Assembly: GCF_023266035.1 (NCBI RefSeq)
Contig: NZ_JAHFRY010000038.1
Location: forward strand, 1 to 32,052
Length of the DNA: 32,052 bases
Direction of reading: 5' to 3'
Origin: Nevskia sp.
Lineage (GTDB): Bacteria; Pseudomonadota; Gammaproteobacteria; Nevskiales; Nevskiaceae
The position numbers and the translations under genes were made by a program. Each line of letters begins with the position of its first letter. Positions within the stretch are counted from its first letter, which is position 1. Below, in pieces: positions 6,030 to 20,659 of the stretch. The notes below the pieces were generated by a model. The model saw only the letters and a list, made by a program, of their open reading frames with translations. It ran no database searches and had not been told where the DNA came from.

Positions 6030-6455
6030 TCAGCGCTCGACAATGATCACCAGGCTGCCGCTGCCGATTAGCCACTCGCCGACGCGCGCCTCGAAGCGGT
6101 AAATCCGGCCCTGCGGATTGGCGGCGATCCTCCAAACGTGCAGATGAAGCCCATCCGGCAGATCGTCGAGCCGGGTCACGGCCAGTTCGACACTGCGCAC
6201 TGCGGCCAGCAGGCCGGCGTGGCGCGGCGCATCCGCACTTGCAGTCAGTGCGCCATGCACGGCTGCGGCCTGCGCGGCGTACTCGATCAGGTGTAGGGCG
6301 GATAACTGACCGTCGCGGCGCAACGGGTGATCGGCCGCGAGATGGCTACGGCTCTCGCATACCCCCTCGTCCGGGGTCCAGCGCAGCACCTGGTCGAGCA
6401 GACACATGCGGCCAGCGTGCGGAATCAGGGCGGCGATCTCGGCCCGATTCAGCAT
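6030..6455 (-). CDS. ApeP-like hotdog 3-hydroxyacyl-ACP dehydratase, copy 1
   Basis: This 141-residue hotdog protein resembles the predicted 3-hydroxyacyl-ACP dehydratases of aryl polyene and xanthomonadin clusters. It has the FabZ-like N-terminal motif IPHAGRMCLLD (H13) and the central-helix motif IEYAAQAAAVHG with E58, but no GHFP histidine motif. It probably pairs with a GHFP-bearing partner (the 8409 product) to dehydrate the growing polyene chain; pairing is inferred from the APE family. The ATG at 6455 overlaps the chain-length-factor stop by 7 nt, so it is the last gene of the minus operon. An in-frame ATG 24 nt upstream gives a non-conserved extension. A second, divergent copy lies at 20186. 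Confidence 0.82.
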   Translation of the reverse strand: MLNRAEIAALIPHAGRMCLLDQVLRWTPDEGVCESRSHLAADHPLRRDGQLSALHLIEYAAQAAAVHGALTASADAPRHAGLLAAVRSVELAVTRLDDLPDGLHLHVWRIAANPQGRIYRFEARVGEWLIGSGSLVIIVER

Positions 6456-7237
6456 GGTTCGATGTCGATCGCGATGCATCGGCTGCCGGTTGCGGCGATC
6501 ACCACCCTGCCCGGTTCGCGGCCCGCCAGTTGTTGCAGCAGCGGCAGCGCGCGGGTGGCGGTCCCGGCTAGCCGCAAGGCTTCGAGCGCAGTGTCATTGA
6601 TCACCGATTCCGACTGGGTGGATGGCGTGACGATCAGGCGCGCGATGGTCGCCGCAGAGCGAACAGGTACCAGCAGAAATGCCACGCCACCTGCCGCGGC
6701 GAGTCCGCGCGTCGCCAGCAGGGGCTCCGGCGGTGTGGTGTCGTAGCAGACCAGCAGCACCGGCAGCCGCTCGACCATCACCAGCGCGGCCGCCTCATTG
6801 AGCCCGGCGGCAAATACGCCGTCCCAGGCCGACAGACTGACCGACGGCAGCCTGCTTTGGATCGCGATGCTCCAGTAGCCGGGTGCGGCGTTGTGCACCG
6901 AATTATGGAAATCGGTCGGCGATACAGTGCGGCCGTCGCGAGCCAACGCGGTGCAGATGCGGTGGATCACGTCGGTATCGGCGTCGGAGGATGCGAACAC
7001 GCTGGCAATGCCTGATGCCGGTAACATGCTCGCGGCAATCGCTTCCTCGGCGACCTTGAACGCCAGCCGCACGGCCGCCGTGGCGCGGCGTCGTTCGTTC
7101 GGCGGCAGCAGATTCGGCGCGTGCAACGACAATGCCGCTGCGATCCACGACGCGTCGCCGCGCAGCACGGCTGCCGTCGCCGGCCAGCCGTCGAGGCCGG
7201 GCATCGCCACGCCAATAGCGTCGACAAAAAGGCTCAT
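6449..7237 (-). CDS. Ketosynthase chain-length-factor-like protein (ApeC-like)
   Basis: This 262-residue ketosynthase-related protein is much shorter than a full ketosynthase and has no active-site Cys: the equivalent region reads SLSAWDG (134-140). The family motif FHNSVHNAAPGYW (110-122) is characteristic of the beta-ketoacyl synthase chain-length-factor family found in APE clusters (PF13723 type). Such proteins form a heterodimer with a catalytic ketosynthase and set polyene length. The ATG overlaps the stop of the ketosynthase gene (ATGA), which fits a 1:1 complex. It is predicted cytoplasmic. Confident as a non-catalytic ketosynthase partner. Confidence 0.88.
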   Translation of the reverse strand: MSLFVDAIGVAMPGLDGWPATAAVLRGDASWIAAALSLHAPNLLPPNERRRATAAVRLAFKVAEEAIAASMLPASGIASVFASSDADTDVIHRICTALARDGRTVSPTDFHNSVHNAAPGYWSIAIQSRLPSVSLSAWDGVFAAGLNEAAALVMVERLPVLLVCYDTTPPEPLLATRGLAAAGGVAFLLVPVRSAATIARLIVTPSTQSESVINDTALEALRLAGTATRALPLLQQLAGREPGRVVIAATGSRCIAIDIEPC

Positions 7238-8412
7238 GGCTGCCTGCCAAAAAGCAGGCTGCAATTGCTGCCGCCGAAGCCAAAGGAATTGCTCAGCACG
7301 TGCCGGATCGGTGCCCTGCGGGTTTCAAGAATGATGTCCGCCTCGATCGCCGGGTCGATCTCGACACTGTTCAGCGAACGCGGAATCAAGCCGTTTTCGA
7401 GACACAGCAGCGACAACACCGCTTCGACGATGCCGGCGGCACCGAGCGTGTGACCGGTCCAGCCCTTGGTCGAACTGCAAGCCGTTGCGCTGCCAAACAC
7501 ACGGCAGACGGCGCGTGATTCGGCAAGGTCGTTGGCTGGTGTCGCGGTGCCGTGCAGGTTGATGTAGTCGACGGCCGCCGCAATCAGCGATGCACGTTGC
7601 AGCGCAGCCGACATCGCCTCGAACGCCCCGCGCCCGTCCGGCTCTGGGGCCGACATGTGCCAGGCGTCGCTGGATTCGCCATAGCCGAGCAAGGCAAAAG
7701 CTGCGTCGGCACCTGGCTCGACGATCGCGAAACCAGCCGCTTCGCCGATCGAAATGCCGTTGCGGGCGATGTCAGCCGGCCGGCAAGGCGCGGACGACAG
7801 CAATTGCAGCGAATTGAAGCCGTAAAGTGTTGTCTGGCACAGGCTGTCGACGCCGCCGACGATCGCCGCATCACAGAAACCGGCGGCGATCGCCCGCTGG
7901 GCGCTGGCGAAGACCTTGGCGCTCGACGAGCAGGCCGTCGAAATGACCATGCTGACGCCGTCGAGACCGAGCCTGAGCCGCAGGTAGTCGGCGACCGAAT
8001 ACATATTCTGGGTGTTGCGATAGCGGAACCAGGCCGGCAGCGGCCCGCTGCTGCTGCCGCGTTCGCGATACGCGCCCTCGGTCTGGTGTACCCCGGCGGT
8101 GCTGCTGCCGATGAACAAGCCGACTCGCGCAGCACCGTGTCGCTCCCGCAACCGCACTGCCGCTTCGAAAAAGCCGTCTTGCTGCAAGCCCAGTTCGGCG
8201 AGCCGGTTGTTGCGGCAATCCCAGTCCTGCCAAGGTGCCGACAGCGGCTGGTCGAGGCCGTCGACAACGCCGGTCCAGCCGGGCAGTCCGCAGCCTTCAA
8301 ACGGCGCAGCGCGCAGGCCACTGCGGCCACGATGCAAGGCACCAAGCTGTGCGCCGAGGCCACGGCCAAGCGCAGTCGTTACCGTGAACGCGGGAATCGC
8401 CAGCGGCGTCAT
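7234..8412 (-). CDS. Beta-ketoacyl-ACP synthase, FabF-like (APE ketosynthase 1)
   Basis: This 392-residue condensing enzyme has an intact Cys-His-His triad: C161 in ISTACSSSA, H287 in NLHGTATP and H321 in GWTGHTLGAAG. It would elongate the aryl-primed chain with malonyl-ACP, probably as a heterodimer with the adjacent chain-length factor. The start MTPLAIPAFT is set by the ATGA overlap with the dehydratase stop. A much longer in-frame extension reads as an arginine-rich shadow of upstream genes and is rejected. It differs clearly from the second ketosynthase at 21393, so the two are not a recent duplication. Confidence 0.92.
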   Translation of the reverse strand: MTPLAIPAFTVTTALGRGLGAQLGALHRGRSGLRAAPFEGCGLPGWTGVVDGLDQPLSAPWQDWDCRNNRLAELGLQQDGFFEAAVRLRERHGAARVGLFIGSSTAGVHQTEGAYRERGSSSGPLPAWFRYRNTQNMYSVADYLRLRLGLDGVSMVISTACSSSAKVFASAQRAIAAGFCDAAIVGGVDSLCQTTLYGFNSLQLLSSAPCRPADIARNGISIGEAAGFAIVEPGADAAFALLGYGESSDAWHMSAPEPDGRGAFEAMSAALQRASLIAAAVDYINLHGTATPANDLAESRAVCRVFGSATACSSTKGWTGHTLGAAGIVEAVLSLLCLENGLIPRSLNSVEIDPAIEADIILETRRAPIRHVLSNSFGFGGSNCSLLFGRQP

Positions 8413-8708
8413 GTTGGGGCGATCGCGCGCAATTGCAGCCGACCTTCGGCGACCAGCGTATCGCCGATCAGGCAGCGGAACGCGGCTAGCTCGCCCTCGC
8501 GCTGCCAGAAGATCTCGAAAGCTTCGTCGCCGGCCAGCGGACGCAGGAATTTCGCCGCCGGGAAGCCGACGAGCACGCAGCCCGGCGCGTCGGCCAGTAC
8601 CGCCGCGACGACGCGATCGAGCAGCAGCACGCCGGGCACGATCGGCCGGCCGGGGAAATGACCGGGCAATGCCGGATGCTCGGCGGATATCACATCCGGC
8701 ACGCGCAT
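8409..8708 (-). CDS. ApeI-like hotdog 3-hydroxyacyl-ACP dehydratase, copy 1
   Basis: This short (99-residue) single-hotdog protein has the dehydratase motif GHFPGRPIVPGVLLLD. H17 and D31 are 14 residues apart, the same spacing and His-Asp pairing as FabA, where FabZ has His-Glu. It would remove water from 3-hydroxyacyl-ACP during polyene growth, likely together with an ApeP-like partner. Either the ATG at 8708, which overlaps the ligase stop as TGATG, or the GTG at 8711 could be the start; ATG is preferred. It sits between the ligase and the ketosynthase in a tightly coupled operon. Confidence 0.82.
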   Translation of the reverse strand: MRVPDVISAEHPALPGHFPGRPIVPGVLLLDRVVAAVLADAPGCVLVGFPAAKFLRPLAGDEAFEIFWQREGELAAFRCLIGDTLVAEGRLQLRAIAPT

Positions 8709-9937
8709 CACGACGAGGCCTGCACCAGCAGTAGCCGCAAGTCACGCAAAGGCAGCTTGCCGCTGTCGGATCTGGGCAGACGATCGACCCGATGCAGCGG
8801 CCGCGGCAGGAACAGGGCGTCGATCCGGCTGGCGAGCTGGTCGCGGATCTGTGCTGTGCTCAGACCGGGGGCGACGACCAGCGCGGCTGGGCGCGCGGCG
8901 ACATCGTCGTCCGGCATGAACACCACAGCATCGACGACGCCGGGCAGCGCCAGCAAGGTCTGGGTCAGCTCGGCCAGCGACGTGCGCTTGCCGCCGACTT
9001 TCAGCAGATCACCGCTGCGGCCGAGCAAGCTGAAGCAACCGTCGTCCTGCAAGGCGAATTGGTCGTGCAGCGGAACGGGTTCCGGCAGCCAGGGCGCAAC
9101 CAGCCTGGCTGGGCTGGTCGTGATGTCGAGTCGCGTATCGGCGTGCAGTTGCCAGGCCGGGCCGCCGGTGGTGCGCCGGGTGGCGACACTCGCGGCTTCG
9201 GTGCAGCCGTAGATTTCGCGCACCGGGCAGCCGAACTGTGCTTCCGCTTCCGCTGCCAGCGTGTCTGAAAGTGGCGCTGTAGCGCAGACGATGCCGTGCA
9301 GCGTCGGCAGCACGATGCCGGCCGCGACCAGCGCGCGCAGGTGCAACGGCACCGTCACCAGCAGGCGCGGCAGGGGGATTTCGGCCAGCGCGGCGGCGAT
9401 GTCCTGCGGGTAGAACGGCCGGCCATCGTGGATCGCAGCCAGCCCGGCCAGCGCCCAGATCGCGGTGGTTTCAAGGCCGTACATGTGCTGCGACGGCACC
9501 GTCGCGACGATGTTGGGCCGCGTGCCGTCAAACAACCGTGCAGCCGCGCGCCGCGCCGGTTCAATCAGCATCGGCCAGCTTTTCGGGTGTGCCTGCGGCT
9601 GGCCACTGCTGCCCGAGGTGTAGACGGTCACTGCCGGCTGGGCGGCGCGTGGAACGCCAATCGCCGCAGCGCGCAGCGCGTCCACGCCGGCATCGTCGAG
9701 CCGGAATGCAGCCTGATCGTCCGTGATGGCGTCGCTGTTCGTCGGCAGCAGGCTGCGCGCGCCGACCATGCCGGCAGCCGCCAGTGCCAGCAGGAAGCGG
9801 TAGCGGTCCTGGCAGAGGTTCAGCAGCGCGCGATCCTTCGGCAGCGCGCCGGCGAGTTGTCGGGCTTCCGCATCGAACTGCGAACGCGACACCGACTGTC
9901 CGCCCCGCCAGACGATGATCTCGACCGGACCGCTCAT
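8708..9937 (-). CDS. AMP-dependent aryl-acid:ACP ligase (ApeH-like)
   Basis: This 409-residue member of the ANL adenylating superfamily has the phosphate-loop motif YTSGSSGQPQAHPKS at 106-120, the IYGCTEAAS motif, the hinge region GRSGDLLKVGGKR, and C-terminal K394 in SGKLPLRDL, the usual catalytic lysine. In aryl polyene and xanthomonadin pathways such ligases activate the aromatic starter acid and load it on an ACP. The substrate here is probably a hydroxybenzoate or hydroxycinnamate (inference). The start at 9937 overlaps the membrane-protein stop (ATGA); longer frames lack family similarity. It is shorter than typical acyl-CoA synthetases, as expected for this subgroup. Confidence 0.88.
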   Translation of the reverse strand: MSGPVEIIVWRGGQSVSRSQFDAEARQLAGALPKDRALLNLCQDRYRFLLALAAAGMVGARSLLPTNSDAITDDQAAFRLDDAGVDALRAAAIGVPRAAQPAVTVYTSGSSGQPQAHPKSWPMLIEPARRAAARLFDGTRPNIVATVPSQHMYGLETTAIWALAGLAAIHDGRPFYPQDIAAALAEIPLPRLLVTVPLHLRALVAAGIVLPTLHGIVCATAPLSDTLAAEAEAQFGCPVREIYGCTEAASVATRRTTGGPAWQLHADTRLDITTSPARLVAPWLPEPVPLHDQFALQDDGCFSLLGRSGDLLKVGGKRTSLAELTQTLLALPGVVDAVVFMPDDDVAARPAALVVAPGLSTAQIRDQLASRIDALFLPRPLHRVDRLPRSDSGKLPLRDLRLLLVQASS

Positions 9938-10536
9938 GCGCGGATGTCGAACTGCGCGACGTTGCGCAGATAGCGGATGAAGCCGGTGCGCTGGCGTTCC
10001 GGGTAGCGCCAGCGGCGGTAGCCGTACTCGATGGCGAACAGGGCCGCGAGCAGCAGGTAGTTGACGAGGTTGGTCATCAGCGACCACAACTCGATCTTGC
10101 CAAGCGCGATCAGCACGGCAGCGCTGAGCGCCATCAGCCCGAACGAGGCGGTCCAGATCTCGGTCCAGCGGCGCGTGTAGCGAGCGATTTCCGGCGTCAT
10201 CGGGTCCGGCGACTGCTGGGCCATGCGAGTAATCATCGGCGTCTGGCCCACCCGCAGACTGCTGCCGAACACCCCCATCAACAAGATCGGAATGATCAGC
10301 GATGACAGATACAGCGCGTACTGGCCGGCACCGGCCGCCGTCAGCAGATACAGGCCGGCGGCGATCAGCGGCAGCAGCAGCCAGGCCTGCCAGCGACCGG
10401 CAACCAGCCCCGGCACCAGCGGCACCGTGGACAAGGACAGCAGCGCCAGCCAGACCAGTCGCGGCGCATGCAGCCAGACCGCCAGATGCGCCAGCAGCGG
10501 ATAGGCGGCGACCAGCAGCACCGAGAGCCACTTCAT
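9934..10536 (-). CDS. Polytopic inner-membrane protein, COG4648/ApeG-like
   Basis: This 200-residue hydrophobic protein has about six predicted membrane helices: near residues 2-22, 28-48, 50-68, 74-92, 130-146 and 150-170. Helices four and five are separated by a charged loop holding GSSLRVGQTP and RYTRRWTEIW. Similar proteins are regular members of APE clusters with no established biochemical role; a part in assembling or handing over the membrane-bound polyene is a guess. The ATG is 14 nt after the ACP stop, and its own stop overlaps the ligase start. Confidence 0.8.
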   Translation of the reverse strand: MKWLSVLLVAAYPLLAHLAVWLHAPRLVWLALLSLSTVPLVPGLVAGRWQAWLLLPLIAAGLYLLTAAGAGQYALYLSSLIIPILLMGVFGSSLRVGQTPMITRMAQQSPDPMTPEIARYTRRWTEIWTASFGLMALSAAVLIALGKIELWSLMTNLVNYLLLAALFAIEYGYRRWRYPERQRTGFIRYLRNVAQFDIRA

Positions 10537-10550
10537 CGTCGATGAGTGGG

Positions 10551-10835
10551 CTAAGCGCAGCGGCTGACGATCAGTTCGGTCAAGGTGCGCAGCGACGCAA
10601 ACGCCGGCTTGACCTGCTCGTCCTCGGAACGCAGTTCGACGCCGTATTGCTGCTGCACGGCGAGCGCGATTTCCAGCGCGTCGATCGAATCCAGGCCCCA
10701 GCCGCCGCCGGTATTGCTGAACAAGGGCGCGGTCGGATCGACCCGATCAGCCTTCAGATGCGTCATGTTCAGCGCGCCGATCAGTAGTTCGGCCATCTCG
10801 CGTTCGGCGGCAGTCTGGGCCGTCATTACCGTCAT
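10551..10835 (-). CDS. Acyl carrier protein 1 (APE type)
   Basis: This 94-residue carrier protein has the phosphopantetheine site S50 in GWGLDSIDALEIAL, followed by the usual helix. It would carry the starter or the growing chain. It is the first gene of the minus-strand operon. A GAGG ribosome site lies 10 nt before the ATG at 10835, while an ATG nine bases later is less well placed. The GGGWG run before DSID differs from the second ACP at 14933, so the two probably have different partners or stages. No phosphopantetheinyl transferase is in the window. Confidence 0.9.
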   Translation of the reverse strand: MTVMTAQTAAEREMAELLIGALNMTHLKADRVDPTAPLFSNTGGGWGLDSIDALEIALAVQQQYGVELRSEDEQVKPAFASLRTLTELIVSRCA

Positions 10836-10915
10836 TTATTAGCTGCCTCAATTGGATGAATGGGACGCGACCTGCGGACGGTAGTCCGGGAGTCCCTCGA
10901 CCTGAATATTCTTGC
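10836..10915. promoter_or_regulatory. Divergent control region of the two polyene operons
   Basis: This short gap separates the first genes of the minus and plus operons, so both main promoters are expected here or just inside the 5' end of the plus-strand acyltransferase gene. An 8-bp palindrome GAATATTC is at 10904-10911. No clear sigma-70 pair is recognisable on either strand. No regulator gene is encoded next to it. Confidence 0.45.
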
Positions 10916-11839
10916 ATGAAGGTCGACGACGCCGATGACGGCGGCAACAAGCCGCCGATTACACTGACGGCCCCGCGAACTGCGATCCGTCTGACCTTGG
11001 TCCCCGATCACCTCTACCGACCGACCGGCCTGCCCGCCTGGATTCGCTACCGCTGGCGTCAGCTACGCACGGGCATCGCGTTCGCGCTGTTCGGCCTGGC
11101 CGGTCTGGTATTCGCGCCACTGGTGCTGCCACTGGCACGGATTGGCGCAGGCGATCCGGCCAAGCTGCGACGGCGAGTGCAGTGGATCGTGTCGCGCTGG
11201 TTCGGTGCCTTTTCCCATGCCATGCGCCTGCTCGGCTTGATTCGCTGGGACATCCAGGGTGCCGACAAGCTGAAGAGGCGAGGCCAGTTGCTGATCATCG
11301 CCAACCATCCGAGCCTGATCGACGTGGTACTGCTGCTCGGCTACATCCCGGAGAGCGACTGCATCGTCAAGCAGGCGCTGTTCCGCAATCCGTTCACCCG
11401 CAAGGCCGTGACCTGGGCCGGCTACATCAGCAATTCAACGCCGACCCAACTGGTGACTGACTGCTCGGCCAGCCTCAAGGCCGGCCGTTCGCTGCTGATC
11501 TTCCCCGAAGGCACACGCACCGTGCCCGGCGAGCCGATCCGCATTCCGCATGCAGCCGCGCGCATCGCTTTGGAATCGGTCGCGGAGATCCTGCCGGTCA
11601 GCATTCGCTGCGAGCCGGTCACGCTGACCAAGCGCCAGGCCTGGTACCGGGTGCCGGCGCGCCGCGTGCAGTACACGATCGTCGTTGGCGAGCCGTACAG
11701 CGCGGCACCCTGGCTGGCCGAGGCGCCGAGTATGGCGATCGCCGCGCGGCGGCTGTCGCGGCACTGGGAGCAGTGGTTCACAAGGCAATGGGCCGCGCCG
11801 CCGCTGCCGGATGTCGAAACGGCGTCGGCTGGGCGATGA
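10916..11839 (+). CDS. PlsC-type 1-acyl-sn-glycerol-3-phosphate acyltransferase-like protein (ApeD-like)
   Basis: This protein of about 307 residues is of the lysophospholipid acyltransferase family, with the HX4D catalytic motif NHPSLID (H131, D136) and the substrate motif FPEGTR (196-201). A hydrophobic segment near 50-75 would anchor it in the inner membrane. In APE clusters such enzymes are thought to link the polyene acyl chain to a lipid or glycerol moiety (inference). The start is uncertain: ATG 10916 is chosen, ATG 10856 is possible, and homology really begins near residue 25. It is the first gene of the plus-strand operon and is followed after 31 nt by the halogenase-like gene. Confidence 0.85.
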   Translation: MKVDDADDGGNKPPITLTAPRTAIRLTLVPDHLYRPTGLPAWIRYRWRQLRTGIAFALFGLAGLVFAPLVLPLARIGAGDPAKLRRRVQWIVSRWFGAFSHAMRLLGLIRWDIQGADKLKRRGQLLIIANHPSLIDVVLLLGYIPESDCIVKQALFRNPFTRKAVTWAGYISNSTPTQLVTDCSASLKAGRSLLIFPEGTRTVPGEPIRIPHAAARIALESVAEILPVSIRCEPVTLTKRQAWYRVPARRVQYTIVVGEPYSAAPWLAEAPSMAIAARRLSRHWEQWFTRQWAAPPLPDVETASAGR

Positions 11840-11870: not shown

Positions 11871-13115
11871 GTGACCGACGTGGCGATCATCGGAGCCGGC
11901 CCGGCAGGCTCGCTGGCAGCAGCCCTGCTGGTCCAGCAGGGATTCAAGGTGACTGTGCTGGAACGGCAGACCTTCCCGCGCTTCTCGGTTGGCGAAAGCC
12001 TGCTGGCGCAGAGCCTGGACCTGATCGACCGCGCCGGTCTGCTGCCGGCCGTGCAGATGGCCGGCTTCCAGTACAAGAATGGTGCCGCGTTCCGCTATCG
12101 CGAGGGACGCTCGAACTACAACTTCGCCGACAAGAGCACACCTGGTCCCGGCTACACCTACCAGGTGCCGCGCGGCGAATTCGACAAGCTGCTGATCGAC
12201 GAGGCCGAGCGAATGGGCGCGACGGTGCGCTATCAGGTCGAGATCGTCGCCGCTGACATCTCCGGCGAGCGCCCGAAGCTCAGCGCCCGCAATGTCGATG
12301 GCTCCATCGAAGACCTGCAGCCGCGCTTCGTGCTCGATGCCAGCGGCTTTGGCCGGGTGTTGCCGAAGCTGCTGAAGCTCGAAGTGCCGTCGGCGTTCCC
12401 GATGCGCGCCGCGCTGTTCACCCAGGTGTTCGATGGCATTGCATCCGGTGCCTTCGATCGCCAGAAGATCCACGTCACCGTGCATCCGGTCAATCGCGGC
12501 ATCTGGTTCTGGCTGATTCCATTCTCCAACGGCAAGGCTTCGATCGGCGTGGTCGCCGACGATGCCGTCCTGCAAAGCTATCCCGGCAGCAACGAACAGC
12601 GGCTGTGGGCGCTGATCAACGAAGACCCAGGCCTGCGCGAACTGCTCAAGCAGGCCCAGCCGGCGCTGCCGGTCGGCGAGCTGCGTGGTTACGCAGCGAA
12701 CGTCACCCAGATGTCCGGCCCCGGCTTCGCACTGCTCGGCAATGCAGCGGAATTCCTCGATCCGGTGTTCTCCTCCGGCGTCACCATCGCGATGAAGTCT
12801 GCGCATCTGGCGAGTGCGGCACTGGGCCGGCAGCTCAGAGGCGAAACCGTGGACTGGGCAGCGGACTTCGAGCAGCCGCTCAGGCTCGGCGTCGACACCT
12901 TCCGCAACTTCGTCGAAAGCTGGTATCAGGGCGGCTTGCAGGACATCTTTTTCCACGAAGCCCAGGACCCGCGCATCCGTCGCTACCTCTGCTCGATCCT
13001 CGCTGGCTACGCTTGGGATACCGACAACCCCTACGTCGGCAAGGCCGGCAGCCTGCGCCTGCGGACCTTGGCCCAGCACTGCCGTCCGATCGACGCGGAC
13101 GCCCTGCTGGCGTGA
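11871..13115 (+). CDS. FAD-dependent halogenase-like oxidoreductase
   Basis: This 414-residue flavoprotein has the FAD-binding motif GAGPAG at 8-13, the GESLL segment at 41-45 and two features diagnostic of flavin-dependent halogenases: WFWLIP at 212-217 (WxWxIP) and FLDPVFSSG at 295-303 (FxxPxxSxG). K69 in FQYKNGAAF is a candidate for the catalytic lysine. Xanthomonadins are brominated aryl polyenes, so ring or chain halogenation is the leading hypothesis; a non-halogenating oxidoreductase cannot be excluded. The start is the GTG at 11871, seven nt after an excellent GAGGA ribosome site. The stop overlaps the next gene's GTG (GTGA). It would use a separate flavin reductase, none of which is in the window. 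Confidence 0.82.
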   Translation: MTDVAIIGAGPAGSLAAALLVQQGFKVTVLERQTFPRFSVGESLLAQSLDLIDRAGLLPAVQMAGFQYKNGAAFRYREGRSNYNFADKSTPGPGYTYQVPRGEFDKLLIDEAERMGATVRYQVEIVAADISGERPKLSARNVDGSIEDLQPRFVLDASGFGRVLPKLLKLEVPSAFPMRAALFTQVFDGIASGAFDRQKIHVTVHPVNRGIWFWLIPFSNGKASIGVVADDAVLQSYPGSNEQRLWALINEDPGLRELLKQAQPALPVGELRGYAANVTQMSGPGFALLGNAAEFLDPVFSSGVTIAMKSAHLASAALGRQLRGETVDWAADFEQPLRLGVDTFRNFVESWYQGGLQDIFFHEAQDPRIRRYLCSILAGYAWDTDNPYVGKAGSLRLRTLAQHCRPIDADALLA

Positions 13116-14032
13116 GTGCCGATGGCGCCGGCTGGGAGTCCCAGCGCGAGCGCAGCACGGTGTTCTGGGTCGGCCTGCTGGCCTGGGTAGTGCGCCGGCT
13201 CGGCCGGGCACCGGCGCGACTGCTGCTGTGGCCAACGGTCGTCTGGTTCCTGATCGCCGCCGGCAGCGCACGTCGTGCATCACGCGAGTACCTGCGCCGC
13301 GCGCTCAGCCGTGAGCCCCGGCTTACCGACCTCGCCCGGCATTTCTTCACCTTCGCCGCCTGTTCGCTGGACCGCCTGCTGCTGACCGGCGACAACGGCC
13401 GCCAGCTCAAGCTGAACATCCATCGCTCGGATGCCGTGCTGGCGTTGTTCGAGCGCCGCGAGCCGGCGCTGGTGTTGGTGTCGCATCTCGGCAGTTTTGA
13501 AGCCTTACGGGTGATCGGCTCGGAACTGCATCAACTGCCGCTGAAGATCCTGCTCGATCGCCAGCACGGCCGCATGGTCACCAGCCTGATTGAGCGGCTC
13601 GACCCCGGCTTCGCCGCCAGCATCATCGACGCCTCCGAGCGCGGCCCGACACTGGTGCTGGCACTGCGCGATGCGATCCGCGCCGGCTACAGCCTGGGCG
13701 TCATGGCAGACCGGGTGCGCGGCGACGAGCCCTCGGTCGGCGTCACGTTCCTGGGCGGCAAGACATGCTTGCCAACCAGCCCCTGGGTGCTGGCCAGTGC
13801 GCTGAAACTGCCGGTGGTCGCTGCGTTCGGCGTTCATCGCGGCGGCCGGATCTACGACGCACATTTCGAATTGCTGGAAGCGTCTATCGACCTGCCGCGT
13901 GTCGACCGCGACGCCGCGCTGCAAGCCTGTGCACAGCGCTATGCCGGCCTGCTTGAACAGCAGGCGCGGTCCGCGCCCTACAACTGGTTCAACTTCTACG
14001 ACTACTGGAGCGACACCCATGACCCACCTTAG
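13112..14032 (+). CDS. LpxL/HtrB-type lysophospholipid acyltransferase
   Basis: This 306-residue protein resembles lipid A late acyltransferases. It has an N-terminal hydrophobic segment near 18-50, the HX4E motif SHLGSFE (H125, E130), DRQHGR near 160 as acceptor region, and an NWFNFYDYW end typical of this group. In E. coli-type APE clusters a similar domain is fused to a glycosyltransferase (ApeJ); here the two are separate genes. It probably acylates the sugar- or glycerol-bearing polyene at the inner membrane, which is inference. The GTG start overlaps the halogenase-like stop (GTGA). Confidence 0.84.
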   Translation: MSADGAGWESQRERSTVFWVGLLAWVVRRLGRAPARLLLWPTVVWFLIAAGSARRASREYLRRALSREPRLTDLARHFFTFAACSLDRLLLTGDNGRQLKLNIHRSDAVLALFERREPALVLVSHLGSFEALRVIGSELHQLPLKILLDRQHGRMVTSLIERLDPGFAASIIDASERGPTLVLALRDAIRAGYSLGVMADRVRGDEPSVGVTFLGGKTCLPTSPWVLASALKLPVVAAFGVHRGGRIYDAHFELLEASIDLPRVDRDAALQACAQRYAGLLEQQARSAPYNWFNFYDYWSDTHDPP

Positions 14033-14041
14033 ACTGCCGCC

Positions 14042-14800
14042 ATGCGCAGTGACGCGCCGCCATCGCGAGATTCCGACGTGCCATCCATCGACAGCACCAT
14101 GAACCCGGCACTCGCCAGCCACGTGCCCGAATCGCGCTTCGGCGTCTGGTTCCTCGGCACCGAAACCTGGATCCAGCATGTCCTCGAGCGCGCGCTGGAC
14201 AACCTCGAAACCCTGATCCCGGCGCGCCGTACGAGCTATCCAGTGGTGGTCGATGTCGGCTGCGGCTGGGGCCATTCGTTCCAGCGTCTGCAGCAGCGTT
14301 TCGCGCCGGAACGGCTGATCGGCGTTGATGTCGCGCCGGAAATGCTTGCAGCCTCGGTGGAAACGGCGATGCGTGCCGGCCTCGACGTCGAACTGCTGCT
14401 CGGCAACGACCGACGTCTGCCGTTGCCGGATCAGTCGGCCGACCTGCTGCTCTGCCACCAGACCTTCCATCACCTGGTGCATCAGCACGAAGCGCTGGCC
14501 GAGTTCCATCGCGTGCTGAAGCCGGGCGGCGTGTTGCTGTTCTCGGAATCGACCCGCCGCTACATCCATTCCTGGATCATCCGCCTGCTGTTCCGTCACC
14601 CGATGGACGTGCAGCGCACAGCCCCGGAGTACCTCGCGATGATCCGCGACAGCGGCTTCGAGGTCGCACCATCCGCCGTGTCCTACCCGTTCCTGTGGTG
14701 GAGCCGCCCGGACCTCGGCATCGTCGAGCGCCTGTTCGGCCGTAAACCGTCCGCGACTCGCGAGGAAACGCTGATCAACGTCGTCGGCCTGCGCCGCTGA
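14042..14800 (+). CDS. SAM-dependent methyltransferase
   Basis: This 252-residue class I methyltransferase has the SAM-binding motif DVGCGWG at 71-77, the acidic GVDVAPEML strand end and the post-I LKPGGVLLFSES region. A conserved N-terminal segment PESRFGVWFLGTETW precedes the fold. Aryl polyenes commonly carry methoxy or methyl groups on the aryl ring, so O- or C-methylation of the head group is plausible. The start is either ATG 14042 (nine nt after the upstream stop) or ATG 14099, which begins closer to the conserved part. It is followed by a 100-130-bp gap with a possible internal promoter. Confidence 0.87.
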   Translation: MRSDAPPSRDSDVPSIDSTMNPALASHVPESRFGVWFLGTETWIQHVLERALDNLETLIPARRTSYPVVVDVGCGWGHSFQRLQQRFAPERLIGVDVAPEMLAASVETAMRAGLDVELLLGNDRRLPLPDQSADLLLCHQTFHHLVHQHEALAEFHRVLKPGGVLLFSESTRRYIHSWIIRLLFRHPMDVQRTAPEYLAMIRDSGFEVAPSAVSYPFLWWSRPDLGIVERLFGRKPSATREETLINVVGLRR

Positions 14801-14879: not shown

Positions 14880-14932
14880 TTTTGACCGCCAGGCGTCAGT
14901 ACATGACCCAGCCATTGCCATTTCTCGAGTCC

Positions 14933-15196
14933 ATGCAAAGCACCGACGATATCCACGAACACCTGAAGCGCGTGCTGGTGGAACTGTTTGAAATCGATCC
15001 GGCGAAGATCCGGCCCGAGGCGCGGCTGTACGACGATCTCGACATCGATAGTATCGACGCCATCGACCTGATCCTGAAGCTCAAGGAAACCACCGGCCGA
15101 AAGATTCAACCCGAAGAATTTCGCCATGTCCGGACCGTCGCAGACATCGTCGAAGCCGTGCGAGCGATGCTTGCGGATACCTCGCACACCGCATGA
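14933..15196 (+). CDS. Acyl carrier protein 2 (APE type)
   Basis: This 87-residue carrier protein has the phosphopantetheine serine S40 in YDDLDIDSIDAIDL, close to the ApeE/ApeF type. ATG 14933 is chosen because it gives the usual ACP length beginning a few residues before helix 1; ATG 14903 would add ten residues. It probably carries the chain for the enzymes of the plus operon. Its stop overlaps the start of the second ApeI-like dehydratase (ATGA). It is distinct from ACP 1 in the loop before the serine and in helix 2 (LKLKETTGRKI), so it is not a recent copy. Confidence 0.9.
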   Translation: MQSTDDIHEHLKRVLVELFEIDPAKIRPEARLYDDLDIDSIDAIDLILKLKETTGRKIQPEEFRHVRTVADIVEAVRAMLADTSHTA

Positions 15197-15537
15197 ACCC
15201 TAGGCCACAGGTCGTCGCCACGACGCGGCGATCATCGGCTGTCGATCTTGAACTGCTGATCGGCGCGGACCTGCCGCAGTTCGTAGGCCATTTCGCGGAA
15301 GCCCCGATGGTGGCTGGCCTTGTCCAGGTCGACTGGGCGATCGGCTTTGGCCGCGATCATTTCCCGCAACTGCCGCCGCGTTTCGTCAGCATCAGCGCGC
15401 TGAAATTCATGCGCGTGATCCAGCCCGGTGATCGTCCCTGCCTGTCGCTGACGGGTGACGACACCGCGCTGCGCTTCCGCTACTGGGACGTACGAGGCGA
15501 TTTCTCCAGCGGCGACATCGCTTTTGCCGATGCTTGA
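15193..15537 (+). CDS. ApeI-like hotdog dehydratase, copy 2
   Basis: This 114-residue single-hotdog protein has the motif GHFAEAPMVAGLVQVDWAI. The His and Asp are again 14 residues apart, as in the FabA His-Asp pair, but the prolines of the usual GHFP and PG turns are alanines. Later parts (SISALKFMRVIQPGD) match the ApeI-like family. It probably dehydrates 3-hydroxyacyl-ACP as a partner of the ApeP-like protein at 20186. The ATG overlaps the ACP stop, and the gene overlaps the glycosyltransferase start by 8 nt. Altered substrate or kinetics relative to copy 1 is possible. Confidence 0.78.
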   Translation: MNPRPQVVATTRRSSAVDLELLIGADLPQFVGHFAEAPMVAGLVQVDWAIGFGRDHFPQLPPRFVSISALKFMRVIQPGDRPCLSLTGDDTALRFRYWDVRGDFSSGDIAFADA

Positions 15538-16273
15538 AGCCGGCATTGTCGTGCCGTTCTACCGTCATGAGCAGGCCATCGCCGGGCTTGTGGCGGCCTT
15601 GCGGCCGCTCAGCCTGCGCTGCTGGCTGGTCGACGACGGCAGCGGGCCGCAGTCGGCTGCCGTGCTTGATCAGCTGGCTGTGGCCGAAGCCGGCTGGCTG
15701 CGTTTGCTGCGCCATCCGGTCAACCTCGGAAAGGGCGCAGCGGTGATGACCGGCTTCGCAGCCGCCGCCAGCGCCGGCTGCACGCACGCCGTGCAGATCG
15801 ACGCCGATCACCAACATCTGCCGGCCGACATCCCGCGCTTGCTGGCGCTGGCTTCGACTCGACCGGACGCGCTGATCACCGGCATTCCGGTCTACGATGC
15901 CAGCGTGCCGAAAGCCCGGTTGTATGGCCGCTATGCGACCCATGTCTGGGTCTGGATCAATACTCTTTCGCTGGAAATCCACGATTCGATGTGCGGCTTT
16001 CGCGTCTATCCGCTGGCGAGCGCACTCGCTGCCTGGCAAACCTCCTCCATTGGCCGGCGCATGGAATTCGACACCGAAATCATGGTCCGCATGCACTGGG
16101 CAGGCGTTGCCGTGCTGGGCCTGCCGACACCGGTCACCTACCCGGCCGATGGCGTCTCACACTTCAATCTGTGGCGCGACAACCTGAGGATCAGCTGGAT
16201 GCACACCCGCCTGTTCTTCGGAATGCTGCGCAGCCTGCCAATGCTGCTTGCGCGCCGCAGGAGCCTGCGATGA
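15530..16273 (+). CDS. Family 2 glycosyltransferase
   Basis: This 247-residue GT-A fold glycosyltransferase has IVVPFYRHE at the start, DDG at 35-37, the metal-binding DAD at 91-93 within QIDADHQH, and a LGKGAAVMTGF loop. It resembles polyprenyl-phosphate or dolichyl-type family 2 enzymes and the glycosyltransferase half of ApeJ. It would attach a sugar to the polyene or its lipid carrier. The C-terminus is basic and hydrophobic (TRLFFGMLRSLPMLLARRR), suggesting membrane contact. The ATG at 15530 lies inside the end of the dehydratase gene, and the stop overlaps the thioesterase ATG. Confidence 0.86.
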   Translation: MLEAGIVVPFYRHEQAIAGLVAALRPLSLRCWLVDDGSGPQSAAVLDQLAVAEAGWLRLLRHPVNLGKGAAVMTGFAAAASAGCTHAVQIDADHQHLPADIPRLLALASTRPDALITGIPVYDASVPKARLYGRYATHVWVWINTLSLEIHDSMCGFRVYPLASALAAWQTSSIGRRMEFDTEIMVRMHWAGVAVLGLPTPVTYPADGVSHFNLWRDNLRISWMHTRLFFGMLRSLPMLLARRRSLR

Positions 16274-16692
16274 TCGACCCCGCAAGCCGCAGCGCCGAAA
16301 CGCGGCTGCGCGTGCCGTTCCACGATCTGGACCCGGCCGGCATCGTCTGGCACGGCCACTACGCGAAGTATTTCGAGTTGGCGCGCTGCGAACTGCTGCG
16401 CAGCTTTGCCTACAACTACGACGACATGGTCGCCTCGGGCTATTCCTGGCCGATCATCGACCTGCGCGCCCGCTACGTGAAATCGGCGCTGTTCGAGCAG
16501 GAACTGAGCGTCCGCGCCAGCTTGCGCGAATGGGAGTACCGGCTGCGCATCGACTACCTGATCAGCGATGCTGCAACCGGCGTCCGCCTGTGCAAGGGCC
16601 GCAGCGATCAGGTCGCGGTCGATCTGAAAACCGGCGAGATGTGCCTGCGCTCGCCGGATGTGCTGTTCGCCCGTCTCGGCATCGCGCCGTGA
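16270..16692 (+). CDS. Hotdog acyl-CoA/ACP thioesterase (ApeK-like)
   Basis: This 140-residue protein is of the 4-hydroxybenzoyl-CoA thioesterase family, with the signature FHDLDPAGIVWHGHY carrying the catalytic-type aspartate D21, followed by YFELARCELL. In APE clusters it could release the finished chain or edit wrongly primed ACPs. It is predicted cytoplasmic. The ATG overlaps the glycosyltransferase stop (ATGA), and the stop overlaps the LolA-like GTG. It is the fifth hotdog-fold protein in the cluster and the only thioesterase. Confidence 0.87.
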   Translation: MIDPASRSAETRLRVPFHDLDPAGIVWHGHYAKYFELARCELLRSFAYNYDDMVASGYSWPIIDLRARYVKSALFEQELSVRASLREWEYRLRIDYLISDAATGVRLCKGRSDQVAVDLKTGEMCLRSPDVLFARLGIAP

Positions 16693-17312
16693 TCCGCGCG
16701 CGGCTGGCCAGCCTGCTGATCGCGCTGCTGTTGCCGCTGTCCGTCCATGCGGCGACCACCGTGGCCGAACTGCACAGCCTGCTCGCGAAGTCGCTGGCCG
16801 GCATGCAGCAGGCAAAATCGCTGCATGGCGATTTCACCCAGACCCGACAGTTGTCTGGCTTCCCGCAGCCTTTGGTCTCCCACGGCGATTTTCTGTTTCT
16901 GCGCAGGATCGGCATCGCCTGGCGCAGCCGCGAACCGATCCAGTCCGAATTCATCCTCGACGGCAGCGGCGTGCACGGCAGCGGTGGCCTGATCCCGCAG
17001 AACGCCAACCAGTCGTCGCTGCGGCCGATCGCCGCCTTGTTCATCGCCATGTTCGAGCTGGATCTCGACGCGCTCGCCGAACGCTTCGAACTGAACGCCA
17101 GCGGCAGCGTCGATGCCTGGCAGCTCGATCTGGTACCGCGCGATGAAGCGCTCAAGGCGCTGACGCCGCATTTGAGCCTGCACGGCGGTGCCCAGATCGA
17201 GCGGGTCAGCTTTGCCGACTCACTCGGCGATCTGACCGAAATCCGTTTCGAGCGCCTGCGCGCCAGTAGCGAGCTGCCGACCACCGACGAGCGGGCGCGC
17301 TTCGCGAAATGA
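16689..17312 (+). CDS. LolA-like outer-membrane carrier protein (ApeL-like)
   Basis: This 207-residue exported protein begins with a Sec signal peptide (IRARLASLLIALLLPLSVHA, then cleavage before ATT). The body matches the LolA-related family of APE loci, with GDFTQTRQLSGFPQPL and GIAWRSREP segments. It would ferry the lipid-linked polyene through the periplasm, as LolA does for lipoproteins. The GTG start overlaps the thioesterase stop, and its stop overlaps the exporter ATG. The tight link to an MMPL exporter supports an export role. Confidence 0.86.
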   Translation: MIRARLASLLIALLLPLSVHAATTVAELHSLLAKSLAGMQQAKSLHGDFTQTRQLSGFPQPLVSHGDFLFLRRIGIAWRSREPIQSEFILDGSGVHGSGGLIPQNANQSSLRPIAALFIAMFELDLDALAERFELNASGSVDAWQLDLVPRDEALKALTPHLSLHGGAQIERVSFADSLGDLTEIRFERLRASSELPTTDERARFAK

Positions 17313-19645
17313 TCCTGCGTTTCCGCCTGTTCGTCGCCGTACTGGCGCTGCTGGCCTGCGGCTTGGCGCTGCAACTGCAGCGCGGCCTGCATTTCGAGAC
17401 CGACATCCTGGCGCTGCTGCCTGCCGACGGCCGCGATCCGGCGCTGGACACGGCGAAAACCGTGTTCGAGCAGCACATCGCGCGTCGCCTGACGCTCTTA
17501 ATCGGAGCTGCCGATCCGGAGGCGGCACGCAAGGCAGCCACGGTCATCGCCGGACAGCTACGCGCTTCGCAGGCTTTCGCCAACGTGCAGTTCGAGATCG
17601 GCAAGGACTGGGCGGCGAGCGCCGGCGCCCTGCTGCCGTATCGGCTGGGCCTGCTGTCCGATGCCCATCGGAGTGATTTGCAGCAAGGTCGGACCGATGC
17701 CCTGCGCGACGAAGCCCTGCAGGCGCTGTACGCGCCGGCCGCCTTCGGCCGCGTGGTGCCTGCGGCGCAGGACCTGACCGGACTGCTGTCCGGCTTCGTG
17801 CTCGCGCAGTCGCAGCTGGCTGGCCGCGCAACGCTGGATCGCAGCCTGCTGGTGGTCCACGACGACGCGATCACCTGGGTGCTGATCGCTCTAGAGACCG
17901 CCGGCAGCCCGTTCGCGGCGGAGGCGCAGGACCAGGTCACGGCTGCACTCGACTCCGTCCTCGCGAAAGCGCCGGACGTGCAGGTGCTGCGCTCCGGTGT
18001 CGTGCTGCATGCAGCCGATGCGGCGCGGCGCGCGAAGTCGGAGATGTCGCTGTTCGGCAGCCTGTCGAGTGCGGCCGTCGTGCTGCTGATCTGGCTGACG
18101 TTCCGCTCGCTGCAACCGCTGGTGTTGAGCCTGCTGTCCCTGGGGGTCGGTGCTGCTGCTGGGCTGCTGGCCTGCCAGTGGGCCTTCGGCAGCGTGCATC
18201 TGATCACCATGGTGTTCGGCACCAGCCTGATCGGCGTGGCGGTGGATTACTCGCTGCATTTCTTTTCCGACCAGTTCCGCGACCGCGACCGCTGGACCGG
18301 CTTGATGGGCTACCGCGAAGTCGGCATGGCGATCCTGATCGGCCATCTTGCCTCGGCACTCGGCTACGCCACCCTGCTGATCCCACCGTTTCCGGGCTTG
18401 CGCCAGATGGCGCTGTTCTCGATCGTCGGCCTGATGTTTTCCTGCGCCAGTGTGCTCTGCCTGTATCCGCGGCTGGCGCGGGCCAGCGTGTCGAAGCAGC
18501 ACCAGCCGCTGGTGCTGAAGATCGCGCAGCGGCTGTCGGCGAGCCGCTTCCAGTTCCGGGCGAGCTTGTGGCACATCGGCGGCGCGCTGTTGCTGATCGG
18601 CCTGACCGCCACCGGCCTGGCCCGGCTCACGTTCCGCGATGACATCCGCCTGATGCAGTCCTCGCCGCCCGAGCTGATCAGCGAGGAAAAGGCACTGCGC
18701 GCGCTGCTCGGCATTGCACCCGACAGCCGCTATCTGCTGCTGACTGCGGAGTCGGCGGAAGCGCTGCTGCAGCGCGAGGAAGCACTGACGGCCGTGCTGT
18801 CCGGACTGCAGCAGCGGGACGCGCTCGACGGTTGGCTCGCGGTGTCACGACTGCTGCCGTCGATGCAGCGGCAGACCGACAATCAGGCGCTGCAACGCGC
18901 GCAGGTCTACTCGGCGAATGGCCTGCTGCCAGCACTGATGCGGCAGCTCGGAGCGAGCGATGCCGCGATCGCTGAAGCACGCGCCGCCGCCGATGCGGAA
19001 GCCCCGTTGCTGACCCCGGAACGCTGGCTCGCCGATCCGGCATCGGCGGCGCTGCGACCGCTGTGGCTTGGCGAGATCGGCGGCCACTGGGCCAGTGCCG
19101 TGACGCTGAACGGCCTGCGCGATGCCAAGGCGCTGGATCAGGCGATCGACCGCCTGCCGGGTGTCCACCTGATCGACCGGATCGGCGAAGTGTCGGCACT
19201 GATGAGCCGCTATCGCCAAGGCGCGGTCGGGCTGATGGCCGCCGTCAGCTTCGCAATCTTCGTGCTGCTGGCGCTGCGCTACGGCTGGCTCGGCGGTCTG
19301 TTGTGCCTGCTGCCGCCGGTCGGTGGCAGCTTGATCGCGATGGCGCTGCTCGGCTGGGCTGGCATCAGCGCCAATCTGTTCAACGTGCTGGCACTGCTGC
19401 TGCTGATCGGCATGGGCGTCGACTATGCAGTGTTCCTGCGCGAAGGCCGGCGCACGCAGGTCACGGTGCTGCTCGCCGTCGGTCTGTCGGCGCTGACCAC
19501 CTTGCTGTCCTTCGGCTTGCTGACCTTGAGCAGCACGCCGTTCATCCGCGCGATCGGCCTGACCTTGGCACCGGGCATCGCGCTGATCTTCTTGCTCGCG
19601 ATCTGGCTCGGGCCGGCACCTGAGCGCGAGGAAGCACCGTGCTAA
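17309..19645 (+). CDS. MMPL/RND-family exporter (ApeM-like)
   Basis: This 778-residue inner-membrane transporter has two repeats, each with one helix, a large periplasmic domain (about 25-225 and 420-630) and five further helices. Proton-relay aspartates are visible at D313 in GVAVDYSLHFF and D705 in GMGVDYAVFLRE, the positions expected in helices 4 and 10. It probably moves the lipid-linked polyene from the inner membrane to the LolA-like carrier. The length is normal for the APE exporter group. The start overlaps the previous stop (ATGA), and the following gene starts inside its last codons. Confidence 0.92.
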   Translation: MILRFRLFVAVLALLACGLALQLQRGLHFETDILALLPADGRDPALDTAKTVFEQHIARRLTLLIGAADPEAARKAATVIAGQLRASQAFANVQFEIGKDWAASAGALLPYRLGLLSDAHRSDLQQGRTDALRDEALQALYAPAAFGRVVPAAQDLTGLLSGFVLAQSQLAGRATLDRSLLVVHDDAITWVLIALETAGSPFAAEAQDQVTAALDSVLAKAPDVQVLRSGVVLHAADAARRAKSEMSLFGSLSSAAVVLLIWLTFRSLQPLVLSLLSLGVGAAAGLLACQWAFGSVHLITMVFGTSLIGVAVDYSLHFFSDQFRDRDRWTGLMGYREVGMAILIGHLASALGYATLLIPPFPGLRQMALFSIVGLMFSCASVLCLYPRLARASVSKQHQPLVLKIAQRLSASRFQFRASLWHIGGALLLIGLTATGLARLTFRDDIRLMQSSPPELISEEKALRALLGIAPDSRYLLLTAESAEALLQREEALTAVLSGLQQRDALDGWLAVSRLLPSMQRQTDNQALQRAQVYSANGLLPALMRQLGASDAAIAEARAAADAEAPLLTPERWLADPASAALRPLWLGEIGGHWASAVTLNGLRDAKALDQAIDRLPGVHLIDRIGEVSALMSRYRQGAVGLMAAVSFAIFVLLALRYGWLGGLLCLLPPVGGSLIAMALLGWAGISANLFNVLALLLLIGMGVDYAVFLREGRRTQVTVLLAVGLSALTTLLSFGLLTLSSTPFIRAIGLTLAPGIALIFLLAIWLGPAPEREEAPC

Positions 19646-20196
19646 TCCGCGCGCTGCTGGTCATCGGCCTTGTATTGAACGCCGGCTGCGCGCTGCTGCC
19701 GGCGGCAGAAGACCGACCGTTTCCGCTCGCCGAGCTAGCCGCCAGCCTGCCGCCTTCGGCCACCCAGACGCTGGCCGCGAGCTTCGGCAGCCATCAACTG
19801 GCGCTGCAATGCGCCTTCGCGGCCGATGCCGCCGGCTGGCGCAGTGTCTGCATCGGCCCGGCCGGTCGGCGGCTGCTGACCATCAATGTCGACGCCAACC
19901 GGCAGCTGACGTCCCAACTCGATCCTGCCCTGCCCACCGCTTTCGACCCGCAACGCATGGCCCTCGACATCCAGTGGGCGTTCTGGCCACTGGAGGCGCT
20001 GGAACTCGCTGCAAAAGACACGCAATGGCGAGTGATGCAGCCACGCCCCGACACGCGGCAAATTCATCTGGCCCATCGACTGATCGCTGAAATTCACTAC
20101 GCCGACGCCGATCCCTGGAACGGCCGCCTGACGATCGTCCATCACTCGCCGGCCTACTGCCTCGATCTCCTTACGCAGGCTGCCAATGGCCGCTGA
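19639..20196 (+). CDS. DUF3261 exported, probable outer-membrane lipoprotein (ApeN-like)
   Basis: This 185-residue protein has a short hydrophobic leader ending in LNAGC, a lipobox-like site at C17, though the -3 residue is Asn rather than Leu/Val. Family members sit next to MMPL exporters in APE clusters and are thought to help insert the polyene lipid in the outer membrane, by analogy with LolB. The motif DAQRMALD-like segment (DPQRMALDIQWAFWP) and the C-terminal RLTIVHH stretch are visible. The GTG start overlaps the exporter end by 7 nt, and its end overlaps the next ATG by 11 nt. Confidence 0.82.
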   Translation: MLIRALLVIGLVLNAGCALLPAAEDRPFPLAELAASLPPSATQTLAASFGSHQLALQCAFAADAAGWRSVCIGPAGRRLLTINVDANRQLTSQLDPALPTAFDPQRMALDIQWAFWPLEALELAAKDTQWRVMQPRPDTRQIHLAHRLIAEIHYADADPWNGRLTIVHHSPAYCLDLLTQAANGR

Positions 20197-20659
20197 ATTG
20201 ATCCTCGGCCTCGCCTACACGCCAGCGCAGTTACTGCCGCAGACCGCCCCGATGCTGCTGCTCGATGGCATCAGCGACTACGGCGCTGACTGGCTGACCG
20301 CGACCGTAACCATTCGCCGCGACAGCTTCCTGTGCGACGAGCGCGGGGTGCCGGCCTGGGCTGGCATCGAATACATAGCCCAGACCGCCGCAGCCTGGGC
20401 TGGCATCGAAGCACATCAGGCCGGCCGCCGGCCTGGAGTCGCGCTGCTGATTGGCACGCGGCGCTATCGCTGCGCGGTCGAGCGCTTCCTGCCGACGGCG
20501 ACCCTCGAAATCCATGCGCAGTTGGTGATGCTGGATAACGATGCCCTCGCCGCCTTCGACTGCGAAATCCGCACGGGCAAAATCGTCATCGCAACGGCGC
20601 AGATCAAGGCCTACCGTCCGCCCGACATTCAAGTCTTCCTGAAGGAACAAGCCCGGTGA
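20186..20659 (+). CDS. ApeP-like hotdog dehydratase, copy 2
   Basis: This 157-residue protein fits the ApeP group: LLPQTAPMLLLDG at the N-terminus, VPAWAGIEYIAQTAAAWAG with E62 in the central helix, and LLIGTRRY. The histidine normally seen in the LPHxxPM motif is glutamine (Q19) here, and there is no GHFP motif. It would act with an ApeI-like subunit that supplies the catalytic histidine. It begins inside the DUF3261 gene and ends overlapping the ketoreductase GTG. It is clearly divergent from copy 1 at 6030. Confidence 0.82.
   Translation: MAAELILGLAYTPAQLLPQTAPMLLLDGISDYGADWLTATVTIRRDSFLCDERGVPAWAGIEYIAQTAAAWAGIEAHQAGRRPGVALLIGTRRYRCAVERFLPTATLEIHAQLVMLDNDALAAFDCEIRTGKIVIATAQIKAYRPPDIQVFLKEQAR

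Follow-up and report, generated by a model that had tools for sequence, protein, structure and literature searches.

A halogenase-like flavoprotein in an aryl-polyene cluster of Nevskia sp. falls into one of two separate clades

Does the flavoprotein gene of this Nevskia sp. locus encode a halogenase, and what may be said of the pigment that it would modify? A preliminary description had pointed to halogenase signatures inside a polyene cluster and, by analogy with the brominated xanthomonadins, to a halogenated and methylated aryl polyene. The window, by which we mean the whole stretch of 32,052 nucleotides that was analysed, carries on the plus strand at 11871-13115 an open frame of 414 aa with a GTG start and a TGA stop, and GAGGA is found 7 bases 5′ of the GTG at 11871, which may be read as a ribosome-binding site. 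Aryl-polyene (APE) genes lie on both sides of the gene, so that the polyene setting proposed before holds and its surroundings are an APE cluster. The gene sits in a same-strand (plus) APE run, and a divergent run holds an acyl carrier protein, an AMP ligase, a ketosynthase and a chain-length-factor-like protein. The features are as follows, where clade A denotes the group of relatives that is defined below.

6449-7264, minus strand: chain-length-factor-like N-terminal ketosynthase domain (PF13723), profile match
7234-8439, minus strand: second ketosynthase, profile match
8409-8711, minus strand: short FabA-like match, below the cut-off (21.6 vs 23 bits)
8708-10060, minus strand: AMP-dependent ligase, expected from its inferred role to load the aryl acid; start approximate
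10551-10835, minus strand: acyl carrier protein (PF00550), profile match
10856-11839, plus strand: acyltransferase (PF01553), profile match, 31 bases upstream of the GTG
11871-13115, plus strand: halogenase-like flavoprotein (clade A), 414 aa, GTG start; from motifs, structures and tree
12605-14032, plus strand: lipid-A-type acyltransferase (PF03279) ORF, tentative start, domain match from about 13450
14042-14800, plus strand: SAM methyltransferase (PF08241), profile match, scanned from 14102
14882-15196, plus strand: acyl carrier protein (PF00550), profile match
15193-15537, plus strand: ApeI-like dehydratase (PF22818), just below the cut-off (27.8 vs 28.5 bits)
15455-16273, plus strand: GT2 glycosyltransferase, profile match, tentative start
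16234-16692, plus strand: 4HBT thioesterase, profile match, tentative start
16692-17312, plus strand: LolA-like protein (PF03548), profile match
17309-19645, plus strand: MMPL exporter (PF03176), profile match
19639-20196, plus strand: DUF3261 protein (PF11659), profile match
20186-20659, plus strand: ApeP-like dehydratase (PF22817), above the cut-off
20656-21393, plus strand: short-chain dehydrogenase, expected by analogy with FabG to be the 3-oxoacyl-ACP reductase
21387-22619, plus strand: ketosynthase, profile match

The methyltransferase gene at 14042-14800 is the sole basis on which the product might be called methylated. Among the cluster genes we recognised none for a flavin reductase; one PF01613 protein is encoded in the genome, and such a protein is present also in 13 of the 14 control genomes. 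On the minus strand at window 384-2401, prephenate dehydrogenase-like and hisC-type aminotransferase genes adjoin the pigment cluster, which may reflect aromatic supply or chance.

GxGxxG is the N-terminal FAD motif of flavin-dependent halogenases, WxWxIP is a marker motif of these enzymes and FxPxxSxG is a second one. In the 414-aa flavoprotein the three patterns were found as GAGPAG at residues 8-13, WFWLIP at residues 212-217 and FLDPVFSSG at residues 295-303, and residue 69 is a Lys at the position of the active-site Lys, so that all four are present at the sites previously named for them. We aligned 72 clade A rows, comprising the window protein, 3nix and 70 relatives (71 distinct, as L003 and L040 are one genome). 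W212, W214, I216, F295, P298, S302, G303 and K69 are each identical in 72/72 rows and P217 is kept in 69/72, which argues that the motifs of the window protein are not there by chance. In L052, L053 and L054, from a clade A sub-branch in one family of the order, the sequence is WYWLIG or WYWLIA, that is WxWxIP without the Pro. The window gene is the sole PF04820 match in its own genome, where it was matched as two pieces of a single gene, and a weak second protein match there is one of the two UbiH-family hydroxylases.

Profile scores by themselves are not decisive for the family of the window protein. In Pfam, FAD_binding_3 (PF01494) scored 82.3 bits against 81.5 bits for Trp_halogenase (PF04820), and PF04820 also matches in E. 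coli, Caulobacter and three archaea, so this profile is hardly specific. The top NCBIfam model was CmlS, with 141 bits against a cut-off of 900, while the geranylgeranyl reductase family (TIGR02032) gave 107.5 bits and the QhpG monooxygenase (NF049967) 106.6 bits, below their curated cut-offs of 158.8 and 240, respectively, which places the protein outside both families. Among the sequences of solved structures, the best were 3nix (3e-105), ChlB4 (1e-50), Mpy16 (2e-47), CndH (2e-42) and PltA (6e-40), followed by FasV, CmlS, Bmp2, RadH (7e-29), CtcP (7e-20) and PltM (1e-11) and then by hydroxylases, and the reductase 3oz2 reached only 2e-8. An AlphaFold model of the window protein made from 32 sequences (pLDDT 91.8, pTM 0.90) gave Z scores of 55.2 with 3nix, 45.9 with ChlB4, 45.4 with Mpy16, 45.2 with PltA, 43-44 with Bmp2, 43.2 with FasV, 39.8 with RadH and 39.4 with CndH; the halogenase CmlS, at 36.6, ties with hydroxylases (36.2 and below), and a common fold, here a predicted one, is by itself no proof of function. 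A prediction of bromide or chloride preference from pocket residues was too weak and was dropped.

The family was also approached by phylogeny. The careful tree contained 43 rows, namely 13 of clade A, 9 of clade B, 7 halogenases, 7 of the reductase superfamily, 5 QhpG and 2 UbiH. The halogenase rows are six enzymes of solved structure plus the cyanobacterial relative L095, which groups with PltA; the reductase-superfamily and QhpG rows are all above their family cut-offs, and the two UbiH-family proteins of the genome served as outgroup. QhpG comparators above the cut-off came from 0 of 143 class genomes and 6 of 398 in the phylum. Clade A, clade B and the halogenases lie on one side of a branch with 99/97 support, and the reductase-like rows (98/94), the QhpG rows (100/100) and the UbiH outgroup lie outside it. 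The window protein thus grouped with halogenases and not with reductase-like or other non-halogenating flavoproteins, nor is it among the UbiH/UbiF/COQ6 hydroxylases (TIGR01988), since the genome's two UbiH proteins fall outside. Clade A, including 3nix, was recovered at 100/100 and clade B at 100/97. The nearest kin of clade A differ between two trees: in a quick tree of 68 rows they are PltA/Mpy16/ChlB4 (support 87, flagged for a long branch), and in the careful tree clade A joins clade B (88/81); neither tree includes CmlS, PltM, CtcP, Bmp2, Trp halogenases, LodB or GoxB. A reading in which the halogenase call is mistaken and the enzyme resembles geranylgeranyl reductases or ubiquinone hydroxylases could draw on the TIGR02032 and QhpG scores of 107 bits each, not far under the 141 of CmlS, and on YGWxFP in several reductase-like rows, which resembles WxWxIP. 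Given the tree, the missed cut-offs (158.8 and 240 bits) and the ranking of solved structures, this reading is close to refuted and has very little left in its favour, and its geranylgeranyl-reductase form was rejected for 11871-13115.

The lysine separates the same groups. In the 43-row alignment the Lys69 column is K in 29/29 rows of clade A, clade B and halogenases and in 1/14 of the other rows, where L165 has it outside the GFxxKxGA context. The larger alignment has K there in 72/72 clade A rows (71 distinct), 35/35 clade B rows and 7/7 halogenase rows. Lys69, put forward earlier as a candidate, aligns with the Lys of ChlB4, Mpy16, PltA, CndH, RadH and FasV, and its column corresponds to RadH K74, CndH K76 and PltA K76 (chain numbering), which we take to be the catalytic lysines. 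Taken together, the tree (99/97), the K in 72/72 clade A and 42/42 clade B and halogenase rows, and the AlphaFold neighbours bear out the halogenase signatures.

Clade A also has features of its own. Twelve positions, for example R162, R179, W351, Y380 and W382, set it apart from the 42 clade B and halogenase rows. A9 is found in 71/72 clade A rows and G in 42/42 other halogenase-side rows, and N291 occurs in 72/72 clade A rows (GN) where the other 42/42 have D (GD). Position 291 is presumably the Asp of the second flavin motif in halogenases, replaced by N in clade A; one of the UbiH proteins of the window genome has N at this column too, and therefore flavin binding of clade A need not be lost. 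The clade A stem is long, at 1.28 in the careful tree and 2.06 in the quick tree. This stem and the twelve positions, N291 included, would suit a former halogenase that now performs another flavin reaction, ring hydroxylation or oxidation, on the aryl polyene with the same fold and Lys, and QhpG, with a CmlS-like fold, is described as a hydroxylase (PMC7876137). However, clade A keeps K69, W212, W214 and I216 in 72/72 rows, which a changed reaction should relax, and the QhpG, reductase-like and UbiH rows are without WxWxIP and, in 13/14 cases, without the K, so we regard such a change of reaction as unlikely.

Tree, lysine and context together favour a halogenase over the other readings, and from these comparisons 11871-13115 probably encodes an active aryl halogenase in use, tailoring the aryl polyene of its cluster. 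In flavin-dependent halogenases, reduced flavin reacts with O2 and then with halide, and the resulting hypohalous acid passes to the Lys; PltA and Mpy16 act on carrier-bound substrates, and in xanthomonadin I the halogen is on the polyene carbon next to the ring. A two-component, FADH2-dependent aryl halogenase would act here in a similar way: a separate reductase would supply reduced flavin, which would react with O2 and then with chloride or bromide, the hypohalous acid would move to Lys69, and the halogen would be put on the phenol ring, or on the adjacent polyene carbon, of a substrate bound to one of the cluster's two acyl carrier proteins.

We further studied where clade A and clade B occur. 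A short-peptide scan of named genomes gave 31 clade A relatives, hosted by Gammaproteobacteria, Alphaproteobacteria, an Azoarcus MAG, Myxococcota and Mucispirillum, and the plasmid collection added Cupriavidus, Caballeronia, Burkholderia multivorans, Acinetobacter, Pseudoalteromonas, Neisseria and Aureispira; among these records, L087 is situated on the megaplasmid of Cupriavidus metallidurans CH34. A match of at least 45% identity was found in 20/85 genomes of the order and a match at E 1e-60 in 17/369 class genomes, the window included in both counts; L061-L064 are weaker matches of the order scan without clade placement. With an Azospirillum protein as query for clade B, 34/369 class genomes had a match of at least 45%. 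The surroundings of 54 clade A loci (31/31 named, 18/35 from the order and class scans and 5/23 listed plasmid records; L086, from the genome of L003, was left out) and of 22 clade B loci (16 of the 34 class genomes, two from the order and four plasmid records) were scored as APE clusters when at least three of eight APE core markers were present. Such a cluster surrounds 51/54 clade A loci, the exceptions being L006 and L008 (no marker) and L090 (two), and 18/22 clade B loci, with two markers at three others and none at L092; as a control, two stretches of the window genome were without any APE core marker. An aromatic lyase is near the clade A gene in 22/54 loci and near the clade B gene in 1/22, and a chorismatase in 5/54 and 11/22, respectively. 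Clade B genes frequently have a chorismatase next to them, in xanthomonadin- or arcuflavin-like clusters. These results indicate, as judged from sequence, that APE clusters contain two separate halogenase-like clades, A and B, and the window protein, which has neither the placement nor the GGGP and GD of clade B, is in clade A.

Tentatively, clade A might be a second, separate APE halogenase with a GN flavin-site variant, making undescribed halogenated APEs in many Gram-negative bacteria, although we would sooner doubt than assert a claim of this breadth. Clade A clusters that start from an aromatic ammonia-lyase are found in the Acinetobacter, Pseudoalteromonas and Burkholderia records L088, L089 and L096. 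If clade A halogenates, halogenated APEs could be common and overlooked, many outer-membrane pigments would carry Cl or Br, which might alter how they are coloured, how stable they are and how they act as antioxidants, and clade A would offer aryl halogenases from a new source.

Some clade A loci depart from the common pattern. L006 (an Archangium MAG) and L008 (Facilibium) have no APE marker in the stretch examined; at L006, genes for a protein kinase, a sigma-54 activator and an LRR protein are among the neighbours. The enzymes of these two loci may act by themselves or serve a cluster elsewhere in the genome. The clade A gene of L080, from a 2.0 Mb genome, has an internal stop, and in the Neisseria gonorrhoeae records H21 and H22 it was matched in two pieces, as if the gene were decaying in some lineages. 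On the Aureispira plasmid L090 (1-8459), the clade A gene has among its neighbours a second flavoprotein and a protein annotated as a trifunctional MMPL/acyltransferase/methyltransferase fusion.

The two ketosynthases of the window cluster differ in kinship. The minus-strand one (within window 6449-8439) shares 43-58% identity with those in 9/16 of the clade B loci L125-L140 and 57-60% with those of the clade A loci L152 and L153. The plus-strand one (window 21387-22619) shares 51-76% with most clade A loci and 31-38% with the clade B loci that have a match, save L158 at 55%. From this, the cluster looks like a mosaic.

Neither UbiC nor an aromatic ammonia-lyase was found in the window genome (assembly 96.8% complete). 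The genome has one chorismatase of the FkbO/Hyg5 family (PF21168), to which XanB2 presumably belongs; it is on another contig, where it adjoins shikimate dehydrogenase and formyltransferase/RsmB-type genes, and a similar chorismatase is close to the clade A gene in five relatives (L003, L084, L085, L153 and L155). Given that XanB2-type enzymes yield 3- and 4-hydroxybenzoate, according to PMC3949708, and that UbiC and an aromatic lyase were not detected, the aryl head probably derives from 3- or 4-hydroxybenzoate made by this unlinked chorismatase, which may feed ubiquinone too.

The pigments of known systems vary in halogen content. According to PMC3691225, Xanthomonas clusters carry a halogenase and the pigments bear 0-2 Br, and in Lysobacter both the halogenase gene and bromine isotopes are absent; that a number of APE clusters contain halogenase genes was already pointed out there, in the legend of Figure 5. 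Other reports describe a dibrominated pigment in Steroidobacter cummioxidans (PMC5979037) and chlorination that varies among flexirubins (PMC3992019), and the part of the E. coli APE paper available mentions halogenation solely for other APEs (PMC8253772). In the literature searched, at the level of titles and abstract openings, we found no assay of a clade A or APE-associated halogenase.

The xanthomonadin analogy fared less well than the motifs. The Xanthomonas system is comparable to the window in that its APE cluster includes a halogenase gene (PMC3691225), and from cluster organisation its enzyme would be of clade B; bromination of xanthomonadin is then not directly transferable to the window gene, which belongs to the other clade. 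The Azospirillum clade B gene lies near KS-CLF, MipA/OmpV and polysaccharide deacetylase genes in an arcuflavin-like cluster, and this clade is 26-32% identical to the window protein, which undercuts the step from xanthomonadin to the window gene. The arcuflavin of Azoarcus BH72 is, according to PMC3949708, a non-brominated heptaene although arcA is annotated as a halogenase, and the cluster order given there (halogenase, XanB2, MipA-like, acyltransferase, GT2) resembles the Azospirillum cluster, so that arcA is probably of clade B; an Azoarcus MAG (L024) carries a clade A gene. A direct equation of the window gene with the xanthomonadin halogenase is weakened by the two-clade split, and the claim of a halogenated product, together with the analogy, exceeds the evidence. 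Arcuflavin and the xanthomonadins with 0-2 Br would also fit an enzyme that is able to halogenate but seldom does, with most of the pigment left unhalogenated for want of bromide or of expression, a situation that may apply to arcuflavin. The clade is, however, strictly conserved across Pseudomonadota, Myxococcota, Deferribacterota and Bacteroidota, which argues for steady use, and we consider such rare use quite improbable, more so than a change of reaction.

An aryl halogenase in use thus remains the preferred reading, and three known groups frame it. The closest is 3nix, a structural-genomics protein from Cytophaga hutchinsonii of the same clade A, with 42% identity, Z 55.2 and K73 and N295 at the columns of K69 and N291; it pairs with the Aureispira protein L090 (100/98) inside clade A and differs in its Bacteroidota origin, and its PDB name says only flavoprotein/dehydrogenase. 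Clade B (Azospirillum, Caballeronia, Roseomonas, the last with a member annotated as tryptophan 7-halogenase) shares the APE context, the Lys and the motifs, but has GGGP and GD and is a separate clade (26-32% identity over 35 rows). PltA, Mpy16 and ChlB4 share the fold, the Lys, WxWxIP and FxPxxSxG with the window protein (Z 45-46, 28-32% identity), whereas they have GGGP and GD and serve other pathways, and the window protein has GAGP and GN.
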